NCBI GenBank assembly: GCA_017456105.1
Contig: JAFTKA010000018.1
Location: 1-21,993, forward strand
From: Oscillospiraceae bacterium
Lineage (GTDB): Bacteria > Bacillota_A > Clostridia > Oscillospirales > Oscillospiraceae
DNA: 21,993 bases
Reading direction: 5' to 3'
Part shown: positions 1 through 14,369 of the stretch, one piece after another
Numbering within the stretch: the first letter of the stretch is position 1
Layout of the letters: each line of letters opens with the position of its first letter
Position numbers and translations under genes: made by a program
The notes under the pieces: generated by a model
What the model was told of the DNA's origin: nothing
The model's input: the letters and a program-made list of their open reading frames with translations, nothing else
The model's database searches: none

Positions 1-407
1 CTCTGGCTTTCCTGTGTGAGGCTTACGACGAGGAGGTCGTGGGTCAGGACAAGAACGGCAACGACGATGTCCGCACCGTGCTGCGTCTGCACCCGGCTCT
101 GGCTCCTTTCAAGGCAGCGATCCTGCCCCTTAGCAAGAAGCTCAGCCCCAAGGCAGAGGAGATCTACAGAGAGCTGCGGAAGGACTTTATGGTGGACTTT
201 GACGATGCCGGCTCCATCGGCAAGCGTTACCGCCGTGAGGACGAGATCGGCACACCCCTTTGCATCACCGTGGACTTCCAGACCGTGGGTGATGACACCA
301 CCGAGGCCGACAACTGCGTAACGGTTCGTGATCGCGACACCATGGAGCAGGTCCGTGTTCCCATTGCAGAGCTGAAAGACTACATCGCCAAGAAGTGCGA
401 ATTCTAA
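1..407 (+). CDS. glyQS: Glycyl-tRNA synthetase, single-chain class II type (3' part only)
   Basis: This is the C-terminal end of glycyl-tRNA synthetase, which charges tRNA(Gly) in the cytoplasm. The reading frame is open from base 3 and runs off the left edge, so about the last 134 residues are visible. They correspond to the anticodon-binding domain, with the family-typical runs [40 protein letters not shown] and [11 protein letters not shown]. These match the bacterial/eukaryotic-like alpha2 GlyRS rather than the two-subunit GlyQ/GlyS enzyme. The stop codon is followed at once by a strong intrinsic terminator, so this gene ends its transcription unit. An internal GTG at 39 is not a real start, because homologous sequence continues upstream of it ([12 protein letters not shown]). 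Identification is near certain; the missing 5' part cannot be assessed. Confidence 0.96.
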
Positions 408-414
408 ATAAGCC

Positions 415-461
415 CCGACTGGGCCAATGCTCTGTAAGAGCATTGGCCCAGTCGGTTTTTT
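415..461 (+). terminator. Intrinsic terminator of glyQS
   Basis: A perfect 19-bp inverted repeat (415-433 with 437-455, 3-nt apical loop) is followed by six T residues (456-461). It lies 8 bases after the glyQS stop codon and separates the core gene from the AT-rich insert to its right. Confidence 0.93.
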
Positions 462-483: not shown

Positions 484-512
484 TTGACATTCTCATTTCC
501 TTAAATTAAAAT
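484..512 (+). promoter_or_regulatory. Near-consensus housekeeping promoter of the leader peptide / lipoprotein / protease unit
   Basis: TTGACA (484-489) and TAAAAT (507-512) are separated by exactly 17 bases. Transcription would start near 519, about 36 bases before the leader peptide start codon. No other promoter of comparable quality is visible before the lipoprotein gene at 713. Confidence 0.82.
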
Positions 513-544
513 AGAAATGTAAGAACCACCCCCTGTCGAAAGGA

Positions 545-680
545 GGTCATTGCCATGTTTTATTCTGTATTTCCCAGGCCTTTGTTCATGTGCAATGCCC
601 AATCTTGGCGAGGGAAACTGAAAATCCTTTTATTCCGCACATAAGGAAGGCTGAAAAGTAAGCCCCTTATGTGCTTTTTT
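545..680 (+). promoter_or_regulatory. Four-segment transcription attenuator with leader peptide
   Basis: Four segments can pair in mutually exclusive ways. Segment 1 (545-557) pairs with segment 2 (587-599) in 12 bp with two single-base bulges, covering the leader peptide start codon. Segment 2 (577-593) can instead pair with segment 3 (637-652) as an antiterminator: six perfect pairs of ATGTGC/GCACAT plus a 7-bp block GGCCTTT with AAGGAAGGCT-side bases, including G-T wobbles. Segment 3 (637-652) pairs with segment 4 (661-674) as a terminator (10 bp GCACATAAGG/CCTTATGTGC plus 4 bp GGCT/AGCC, loop 653-660), followed by six T residues (675-680). A ribosome held up early in the leader would cover segment 1, free segment 2 and prevent termination. 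This logic is inferred from the sequence; the general mechanism is established for ribosome-mediated attenuation. Confidence 0.72.
555..644 (+). CDS. Leader peptide of 29 residues
   Basis: The small reading frame starts with ATG at 555 and ends with TAA at 642-644. A strong ribosome binding site, AAAGGAGG (539-546), lies 8 bases upstream of the ATG. The peptide begins MFYSVFPRPLF and ends KILLFRT. It contains the overlapping basic triplets Arg19-Gly20-Lys21 and Lys21-Leu22-Lys23, a +X+ pattern known from macrolide-stalled leader peptides, though this may be chance. Its stop codon lies inside the 5' arm of the terminator hairpin, as expected of a regulatory leader rather than a functional protein. 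No signal peptide or domain is recognisable. Whether it is translated is an inference from the ribosome binding site and its placement in the attenuator. Confidence 0.6.
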   Translation: MFYSVFPRPLFMCNAQSWRGKLKILLFRT

Positions 681-712
681 GTACCCATTTTGTAGAAATA
701 GGAGTGTCCTCC

Positions 713-1416: not shown

Positions 1417-2268
1417 ATGAAAAGAACCAGATCATTAAGCACCTTGTTGTGTTTGTTTGCAATGCTTTTTGTATTACTGTCTGGTACTACTGTTTTTGCT
1501 CACCCGAGAACGCAAAAAGGTATTTTAGCAGAAACTACCATCGATCCAGAATACAGTAGTTACTATGTCGGCTCGTTTGTGGGCGGTGATGCGGTTGGTT
1601 GGCGCATTATGGAAGAGAGGCACACAAACGGCACGGAACAAACATATTCTTTTGATACATCTGACCCATACCTAACAAACACCTTGAAACAGTATGTTAG
1701 AGCGGGAGCTGATATGTGGAGCGACGTTATTGATATTGAAGAAAAGACCGATGGTTCAGGTATGGGCCTTATTTATATAGAGCATTATGAAACCTCACCT
1801 GCTAACGCGAAGTTTGTTGCAGATATTGGAACGTGCACCGATGGCAGAACAGGGCATTTGACTCGCTGGACAATTAAGATATATGAAGACAGTATAAGCG
1901 TGGTGAATGCAACAACGTTTGCTCACGAATTTGGACACATGATAGGCTTGACGGATTTATATGAAAGCTCAAGTAATAACAAGCTTATGTATGGATTTGA
2001 CAACAGAACGGCATCCGCACCTACAAATCTAGACAAATGGGGAGCGAGAGTTATTATCGGTGAACATACTACCCATACATGGGGATATAAATGTCATAGT
2101 GCGGCTACGTCTGGAGGAAACCGACACATAAAATACTGTATTATGTGCAATGGTCTGACAAATACGATCTTGAACTGTTCCTATAATTCTCAGAATATCT
2201 GTACTCTTTGTGGTGTTGCGTACAATGTAAATCCTGCATCCATTGGTATTGAACCAGAGATAAGTTAA
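1417..2268 (+). CDS. Secreted zinc metalloprotease, snapalysin/metzincin-like, with Cys/His-rich tail
   Basis: The 283-residue product has an N-terminal signal peptide (hydrophobic residues about 9-28, likely cut near VFA-HP) and no lipobox, so it is probably exported. The zinc site HEFGHMIGLTD is at residues 170-180, with His170, Glu171, His174 and Asp180 matching HExxHxxGxxD, the form with Asp as third ligand. A candidate Met-turn, LMYG with Met191, follows. After about residue 210 comes a Cys/His-rich tail with pairs HIKYCIMC and NICTLCG, which resembles the repeats in the lipoprotein at 13512. AAAGGAGG lies 8 bases before the ATG. It is co-transcribed with the lipoprotein, so the two may act together at the cell surface; substrate unknown. 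The peptidase fold call is firm for the motif; the subfamily is tentative. Confidence 0.86.
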   Translation: MKRTRSLSTLLCLFAMLFVLLSGTTVFAHPRTQKGILAETTIDPEYSSYYVGSFVGGDAVGWRIMEERHTNGTEQTYSFDTSDPYLTNTLKQYVRAGADMWSDVIDIEEKTDGSGMGLIYIEHYETSPANAKFVADIGTCTDGRTGHLTRWTIKIYEDSISVVNATTFAHEFGHMIGLTDLYESSSNNKLMYGFDNRTASAPTNLDKWGARVIIGEHTTHTWGYKCHSAATSGGNRHIKYCIMCNGLTNTILNCSYNSQNICTLCGVAYNVNPASIGIEPEIS

Positions 2269-13511: not shown

Positions 13512-14369
13512 ATGAAAAGAACAATGTTGCTATTAACAATGCTGCTTACTTTAGTTAGCCTGAGTGCCTGCCATGAACATACTTGGTTAGATGCGACCTG
13601 CACCGAGGCAAAAACGTGTTCTTCTTGCGATGCCGTGTCGGGGGTAGCACTTGGGCATAAATGGCAGGATGCTACCTGCACAGAAGCCAGGACCTGCACT
13701 GTTTGCGGTGTGGTTTTGGGAGATGCGGTTGGTCATAATTGGAGTGATGCAACTTGCACCGAGCCGAAAACTTGCGCTACTTGTGGTGCAACAGAGGGTG
13801 ATGCTGCGGGCCATAGATGGAATGAAGCAAACTGCACTACGCCTAGAACCTGCTATATCTGTAAAATAACGGAAGGGTCTGAGAAAGGGCATGATTGGAA
13901 TGTCATCAATGCGTATCTAAAAAAATGCAAACATTGCGGAGTTACTGAAACAGACCAAAGCAAGTTTCCAAAAGATTTAGGGAGCTTAACACCGTGCACC
14001 GGTAAAAATTATTATAAGAAATACTATGAACACGATATTTACGGAAACGGATTTTCAGAAGGGTTATATATTCAGATTTACGATAAACTGACAGCAGAAA
14101 CGGAATATGTACTAAATAAGGAGTACAAAAAATTTACTACAACATTGATGATATCATCCGATTCATATGAGTATTTTAAAGGTAGTCTGAAAATCTATGT
14201 GGATGAGGTTTTGGCCTATGATTCAGGAATGATGAATCTAAAAACGCAACCGCGCAACATTGAAATTGATGTTTCAGATGCACTATTTCTGAAAATCGTT
14301 GTTTCAGGAAACTCTCCATATGCTAAATCTGGGTATGCAATGCTTGCTTATCCAATGCTCATCTATTGA
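13512..14369 (+). CDS. Lipoprotein with Cys/His repeats and a carbohydrate-binding-like C-terminal domain
   Basis: The 285-residue product has a lipoprotein signal with lipobox LSAC (Cys20), so it is likely surface-anchored. Residues 23-126 are four tandem 26-residue repeats, each H-x-W-x4-C-x5-C-x2-C, with histidines at 23, 49, 75 and 101, and a fifth partial copy from His127. The Cys/His pattern suggests a small metal-binding or disulfide-stabilised unit, as found in stalk-like surface proteins of Firmicutes. The C-terminal part (about 155-285) has the strand pattern of an NPCBM/discoidin-like carbohydrate-binding module: YFKGSLKIYVDEVLAYDSG, IEIDVSDALFLKIVVSG, YAMLAYPMLIY. AAAGGAGAG precedes the ATG. 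It is expressed from a consensus promoter with XRE-type operators. The binding function is an inference from the fold pattern. Confidence 0.83.
   Translation: MKRTMLLLTMLLTLVSLSACHEHTWLDATCTEAKTCSSCDAVSGVALGHKWQDATCTEARTCTVCGVVLGDAVGHNWSDATCTEPKTCATCGATEGDAAGHRWNEANCTTPRTCYICKITEGSEKGHDWNVINAYLKKCKHCGVTETDQSKFPKDLGSLTPCTGKNYYKKYYEHDIYGNGFSEGLYIQIYDKLTAETEYVLNKEYKKFTTTLMISSDSYEYFKGSLKIYVDEVLAYDSGMMNLKTQPRNIEIDVSDALFLKIVVSGNSPYAKSGYAMLAYPMLIY
13578..13889 (+). repeat. Tandem coding repeat, 4 x 78 bp
   Basis: Four units of 78 bases encode the 26-residue H-W-C-C-C repeats of the lipoprotein. The motif GATGC-ACCTGCACCGA-type core recurs with base changes, and units 1-3 are closer to each other than to unit 4. 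Copy number may vary between strains. Confidence 0.85.

Follow-up and report, generated by a model that had tools for sequence, protein, structure and literature searches.

A putative ribosome-mediated transcription attenuator, conserved as a leader family, upstream of lipoprotein and secreted protease genes in an Oscillospiraceae bacterium

We analysed a 21,993-nucleotide stretch of DNA from an Oscillospiraceae bacterium (hereafter, the window), in which a short leader reading frame and an intrinsic terminator precede the genes for a lipoprotein and a secreted protease. The element is real, conserved and coherent, and represents a new sequence family with an unusual set of targets. It is probably a ribosome-mediated transcription attenuator that ties expression of the exported lipoprotein and the protease to translation of the leader. 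Its parts, their conservation and the dependence of its folding on ribosome position follow from sequence and calculation, which support ribosome-mediated attenuation, as claimed in the initial annotation, and suggest that slowed translation, also claimed there, may be the likeliest cue.

Table 1. Features of the attenuator region and its neighbours (window coordinates)
Feature	Position	Strand	Remarks
Glycine–tRNA ligase gene (glyS), 3′ end	1..407	+	NCBIfam glycine–tRNA ligase matches, C-terminal part; upstream neighbour
Strong terminator 3′ of glyS	415..455	+	19-bp stem and T run
Sigma-70 promoter TTGACA-17-TAAAAT	484..512	+	TTGACA 484–489, TAAAAT 507–512, 11/12
Leader Shine–Dalgarno AGGAGG	541..546	+	
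Segment 1, anti-antiterminator strand (leader RBS/start codon)	545..557	+	RNA folds
29-codon leader ORF	555..644	+	ATG 555; stop TAA 642–644 inside segment 3
Segment 2	579..600	+	587–600 pairs with segment 1; 579–593 with segment 3
Codons 18–23 (WRGKLK)	606..623	+	Peptide-level conserved motif, fixed distance from stop
Segment 3, terminator 5′ arm	637..652	+	Folds
Segment 4, terminator 3′ arm	661..674	+	Folds
T6 tract, intrinsic terminator	675..680	+	
Lipoprotein gene, 226 aa	713..1393	+	No Pfam family at cut-off; first regulated gene
Secreted metalloprotease	1417..2268	+	HExxHxxGxxD motif, weak sub-cut-off M10/M12/M6/M7 matches; second regulated gene

As can be seen from Table 1, a short ORF with a Shine–Dalgarno (SD) sequence lies between a near-consensus promoter (17 nt spacer) and the lipoprotein gene. 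The strong promoter, the 29-codon leader and the ideal ribosome binding site described initially were all borne out, as were the placement of the leader stop codon in segment 3 and the lack of a run of any single amino acid in the encoded peptide, MFYSVFPRPLFMCNAQSWRGKLKILLFRT. The terminator downstream of glyS insulates the unit from upstream transcription. Folding reproduced, nearly to the position, the three pairings that had been proposed (545–557/587–599, 577–593/637–652 and 637–652/661–674). In the minimum-energy fold of ribosome-free RNA extending to 650, segment 1 pairs with segment 2 (1:2; 545–557/587–600, 12 pairs), and the rest of the SD, 541–544, lies on 603–606. With a ribosome masking 544–575 (P-site at codon 2), the minimum-energy fold joins segments 2 and 3 (2:3; 579–593/637–650, 13 pairs), and in the full RNA, to 681, segments 3 and 4 form the terminator stem (3:4; 637–646/665–674 and 649–652/661–664), followed by the T6 tract. 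Segment 2 is a copy of segment 4 (CCTT..ATGTGC), and the anti-antiterminator, the antiterminator and the intrinsic terminator are mutually exclusive in silico. The fold of 519–712 has a z of −2.5, with 3 of 200 shuffles as good; the energy of the window's 2:3 duplex alone is not significant (p 0.107). No Rfam 15 family matched the window in a covariance search at the gathering cut-off, and a search covering 13 sources gave nothing credible at the element at E ≤ 0.5; one weak antisense match, to SurA (415–560), stayed below its cut-off (21.2 bits vs the 100 needed).

We calculated the probability of 2:3 pairing, P(2:3), on RNA extending only up to segment 3, moving a masked ribosome along the leader. 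In the window, P(2:3) averaged 0.79 for P-site positions at codons 1–3, compared with 0.00 on ribosome-free RNA and 0.01 at codons 7–13. None of 100 shuffled leaders reached this early/late contrast (3 of 100 reached the early value alone), suggesting that ribosomes detained close to the start codon of the leader are what the element should sense, as in vmlR. With the whole terminator present, P(3:4) in the window was 1.0 for P-site positions at codons 1–22, and by duplex energy 3:4 is more stable than 2:3 in all 22 elements described below. Antitermination must therefore be kinetic. P(3:4) dropped to 0 with the P-site on the last four codons, in the window and in 8/8 other elements folded, so fast coupled translation might itself give read-through; L009 also lost part of 3:4 at some positions early and midway in the leader, and L094 at codon 1.

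We infer the following action in the cell, in which the direction of the response and impaired translation as its cue are part of the proposal. By default, while the start of the leader is free of ribosomes, segment 1, which holds the SD and the start codon, would pair with segment 2, the terminator would form, and RNA polymerase would stop after 680. A ribosome passing codons 6–17 would cover segment 2, and 3:4 would form too. Ribosomes held at the start codon or within about five codons of it, possibly by drugs that trap initiating ribosomes or by slow first decoding, would mask segment 1; segment 2 could then pair with segment 3 before segment 4 is made, and 713–2268 would be transcribed.

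Relatives of the element were sought through the lipoprotein and through the RNA. The lipoprotein family is sparse, as a word-based search of a 5.8-billion set returned 29 proteins at E ≤ 0.001. A genome scan with a lipoprotein alignment (A1) gave 13 loci, in MAGs assigned to Oscillospiraceae and to other Clostridia or Bacillota, several of which come from animal gut; two of these loci, L009 and L012 (lipoproteins 44% and 42% identical), carry the leader design. A third leader relative, found in genome G004, precedes genes for a paralogue of the lipoprotein and a metalloprotease. Two RNA models were used, R1 (leader 3′ half and terminator) and R2 (terminator, built from 17 members, without the leader start, leader length or segment 2); both were built from members of the set, and their matches are thus not independent of it. 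At E ≤ 0.1, R1 had matches in 18 of the 199 G004 relatives, at 27 places of which 17 were inspected; the R1 places L030, L031, L034 and L035 look like chance matches. Among 297 relatives of G201, 46 had an R2 match at E ≤ 0.02, chance accounting for part of the weaker ones; a class-wide search with R2 at E ≤ 0.001 gave 21 places in 18 of 391 genomes. Of the 18 class-wide places outside G201 and G270 we inspected 14, leaving out L126–L129. Only L122 (G864) among them has a W-type leader (bearing the motif described below), which ends early; L119 has an exported-looking gene and an SD-led ORF whose end falls 7 nt short of the stem; the others had no leader ORF by the filter used. L122's early-ending leader (912–962) stands before a lipoprotein that by eye resembles the 106-aa one of L109, and intact leaders of this type occur elsewhere. 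Strict terminator patterns were rare (1/101 and 4/394 genomes). No credible leader relative was found in plasmid searches, phage searches gave nothing or only matches at E 6, and three viral pattern scans (0, 8 and 1 stretches) revealed no such leader.

Some genomes carry several strong copies: G124 four, and G184 and G004 three each, one of those in G004 lacking a leader. Among 15 genomes compared, ObgE identity to the window's genome was 92% for G201, 90% for G004, 89% for G124, 88% for G184 and G003, and 83% for G109. We chose 22 elements for detailed study, namely the window, L009, L012, L112, L114 and 17 of the 18 strong R2 leader loci; the 21 relatives are not all independent, several being close kin (four from G124). 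Excluded by hand were L093 and L096 (leader ORF stopping at +5), L090 and L091 (ORF with another stop), L110 and L099 (terminator with no such leader) and, as weaker, L092, L098, L113 and L115–L118.

Absence of conservation of the leader frame and of the 2:3 pairing in relatives had been named as evidence against the attenuator; we found both to be kept in most elements. At 18 of the 20 R2 places in relatives of G201 with E ≤ 1e-6, an SD-led leader ORF ends in the stem, 16 of these ORFs having their stop codon at stem position +5 (GCGCA-TAA or a variant of it). Across the 22 elements, the leader has 28–34 codons and the stop codon lies at stem +5 in 20, where the distance from ATG to stem is 79, 82, 88, 94 or 97 nt, all 1 mod 3; it is 81 nt in L109 and L111. 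Both sides of the 3:4 helix have changed in 8 of 12 pairs, with 94.6% of cells paired (17 sequences). The 2:3 duplex starts at leader codons 8–10 in 20/22 elements and has a mean z of −1.98 against shuffles (p ≤ 0.05 in 12/22). When L012 is left out, stem positions 3, 9, 10 and 11 each show at least three 2:3 pair types among the 21 elements, and the sequence of segment 2 tracks that of segment 3. L012 is the clear exception for 2:3, having no segment 2 at codons 8–13. Promoter-like sites matching at least 9/12 precede 20 of the 21 elements with enough upstream sequence, a count made without a shuffled control.

The dependence on ribosome position also extends to the relatives. Mean P(2:3) over the 22 elements was 0.40 with no ribosome, 0.78 with an early one and 0.21 with a late one, as against 0.35, 0.35 and 0.31 for shuffled leaders. 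The early-minus-late contrast was matched by at most 5% of shuffles in 18/22 elements, and was not significant in L012, L109, L111 and L027; three mask sizes agreed, early exceeding late by 0.2 in 18 or 19 of 22. The 1:2 guard of the ribosome-free state, however, is not general among relatives: in 9/22 elements P(2:3) is at least 0.6 even without a ribosome, and the early value exceeds the ribosome-free one by 0.2 in only 12/22. This counts against the proposed attenuator, at least as a universal model, as do the greater stability of 3:4, the four elements lacking a significant contrast and the presence of the element at only 2 of the 13 lipoprotein loci.

Surface and secreted proteins had been proposed as the output, and the downstream genes suggest that they probably are. 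The first downstream ORF is exported-looking in 19/21 elements, against a baseline of 21/97 genes (of at least 100 aa); we took the first ORF that had an SD and was 60 aa or longer, and scored as exported-looking an N-terminal hydrophobic stretch with an index of at least 2.1. L027, whose contig ends too soon, stands outside this count, and in L101 and L102 another nearby ORF is exported-looking. By Pfam, subtilases (S8) lie downstream of L088, L094 and L106, and an M10/M6/M7-like protease is the target of L111, a family for which the window's protease stays below the cut-off; L107 has Big_2, and L102 a ricin-type lectin as a later ORF. RHS repeats (Pfam) lie directly behind the attenuator in L114 and L093. 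Several downstream lipoproteins have no Pfam family. No credible PDB or Pfam relative was found for the window's lipoprotein (its structure model has a pLDDT of 90.5), and 26 members of its family gave no Pfam family beyond weak single matches. We had presumed the lipoprotein to be TIMP-like; PF00965 gave no match over the cut-off in 60 genomes, and weak ones in 4, and the guess was dropped. Lipoprotein homologues and protease homologues were found on contigs whose lengths are the same (6304, 26860, 1640 and 1912), which suggests that the two are a conserved pair, possibly an enzyme and its protective partner.

The peptide itself contains a conserved motif, of which the proposed attenuator has no need. 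In 10 W-type leaders, pN/pS was 0.36 from the residue before W through K at +5, and 1.12 for codons 2–7, and in 9 of 11 W-type leaders W stands 11 residues before the last one (12 in the other two) despite varying leader length. These values indicate that LWRGxxK is conserved as a peptide at a fixed distance from the stop. The nascent chain might act at the stop codon, where the ribosome would cover segment 3. If the leader slowed its own release there, in the manner of TnaC, the parked ribosome would block the terminator, in agreement with the loss of 3:4 at the last four codons and with the stop locked at stem +5. We consider such control, in place of start-codon sensing, unlikely. The constraint is local (0.61 for the wider block from −6 to +7, 1.06 for −6 to −2), coding constraint on the RNA could mimic part of it, and LWRG is absent from the eight MVNA-type leaders, where only some basic residues are shared; neither a ligand nor an arrest is known, and the conservation of 2:3 would be left unexplained.

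Several targets being secreted proteases, the element might instead respond to amino-acid starvation and release proteases that scavenge peptides; Phe is indeed the commonest residue at codons 2–5 of the 14 non-MVNA leaders (9 of 56 codons, followed by Asn 7, Ala 6, and Tyr, Cys, Arg and Ile 5 each). However, MVNA leaders have Val, Asn and Ala there, there is no run of regulatory codons, and the lack of constraint on codons 2–7 argues against fixed sensor codons and therefore against amino-acid sensing at the leader start. RHS proteins and plain lipoproteins are also among the targets, and the window's targets are a lipoprotein and a protease, not biosynthesis or uptake genes. Starvation control is thus quite improbable; the protease targets could still have a scavenging role. 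A terminator that is simply constitutive, the short ORF being incidental, would suit L110 and L099, where the terminator lacks a leader ending in the stem, but not the conservation of reading frame, stop position, placement of segment 2 and position-dependent folding, and we regard it as very unlikely. Finally, the initial annotation offered, as an alternative, that the element once controlled a resistance gene and stayed in place when that gene was replaced. The mechanism is typical of resistance genes, and the low GC content of the cassette (0.41 vs 0.52–0.58 around it) suggests acquired DNA. The tet(M), tet(O), tet(S) and tet(W) leaders, with which we compared the element, likewise have a short ORF and a terminator before the gene, but the ORF encodes MRQGILK, the terminator is another one, and the annotated tet(M) leader did not align to the window's. 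Neither model gave a credible match in the tet regions: R2 did not match L138–L140 and, with filters off, gave only weak scores on L141–L143 (the best, 12 bits and E 0.14, on tet(M)'s own terminator), and the single weak R1 match lay on the other strand inside the gene. By these comparisons the element is not a member of the tet leader family. Given this, the lack of credible plasmid relatives, the occurrence of the same leader type before 42–44% identical lipoproteins elsewhere, as if inherited together, and the failure to recognise a resistance gene downstream (genes read by eye and a Pfam scan of 20 proteins), a resistance-gene remnant is hardly credible.

The closest mechanisms to the ribosome-mediated attenuator we propose are those of vmlR and bmrBCD of Bacillus subtilis. 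In vmlR, a uORF lies within an anti-antiterminator hairpin, and a drug-stalled ribosome frees the antiterminator against an intrinsic terminator; the inducers are drugs that stall initiating ribosomes (PMC9226507). This logic matches the one predicted for the window. The vmlR uORF, however, is MIN (three codons) and its target a resistance ABC-F protein (PMC9226507), whereas the leaders here are longer, end in the terminator arm, carry a C-terminal motif in the W-type and mostly precede exported targets. In bmrBCD, the leader bmrB, which is translated, is predicted to contain a terminator, an antiterminator and an anti-antiterminator, and slow translation favours read-through; bmrB, compared by description, differs in being 162 bp and in controlling a multidrug transporter (PMC4191407). 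The toiL-topAI system of Escherichia coli has a uORF that senses translation stress, including start-codon stalls, and a non-resistance target, a toxin-antitoxin, but the mechanism, again compared by description, is translational repression and Rho, not an intrinsic-terminator switch (PMC12121999). The tnaC leader has a critical Trp (W12 of 24), and a ribosome parked at its stop codon permits transcription, a precedent for Trp-dependent parking at a stop codon; it is, however, Rho-dependent and induced by Trp, while arrest for the leader here is only hypothetical (PMC8429421).

Of the ribosome-sensing attenuators considered here, vmlR and bmrBCD control resistance or efflux genes, whereas toiL, before a toxin-antitoxin pair, is an exception. 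The present conserved family mostly precedes secreted or surface proteins, and some genomes carry three or four strong copies of it; no such element before secreted proteins of these bacteria was found among the matches listed in titles and abstract starts of open-licence PMC articles. As the relatives mostly precede exported-protein genes in gut-type bacteria, some microbes may tie secretion to the performance of their ribosomes. If the predicted mechanism is true, low doses of translation inhibitors would alter secretion, including that of proteases and RHS proteins, and a new nascent-chain signal may lie in the conserved motif. One could go further and envisage, though we think it rather unlikely, a clade-centred, multi-copy regulon of gut Oscillospiraceae-type bacteria, in which leaders with two checkpoints, the start codon (1:2/2:3) and the stop codon (LWRGxxK chain, stop in the terminator arm), would induce secreted effectors when translation is disturbed. 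Its outputs, namely secreted proteases, lipoproteins and RHS-type surface proteins, would then serve a danger or competition response, not drug resistance.

Between glyS and an MBL-fold gene, 460–2290 of the window forms a low-GC unit (0.41) of attenuator, lipoprotein and protease. The GC content of this cassette is 0.414 vs 0.578 and 0.522 in its flanks, and it is therefore perhaps acquired DNA. The cassette of L009 is likewise GC-poor (0.384 vs 0.639 around it), and that of L012 hardly lower than its surroundings (0.463 vs 0.498). Such low-GC cassettes fit, without proving, acquired units that bring their own switch. At L110 (G004:C41), the family terminator without a leader ending in the stem is followed by two tandem lipoprotein paralogues and a protease-like ORF, and is perhaps a decayed switch. 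Elsewhere in the window, 13512–14369 encodes a lipoprotein-like protein in which HxW..C..C..C..C repeats accompany an NPCBM domain; its Cys/His pattern is similar to that in the C-terminus of the protease (1417–2268).
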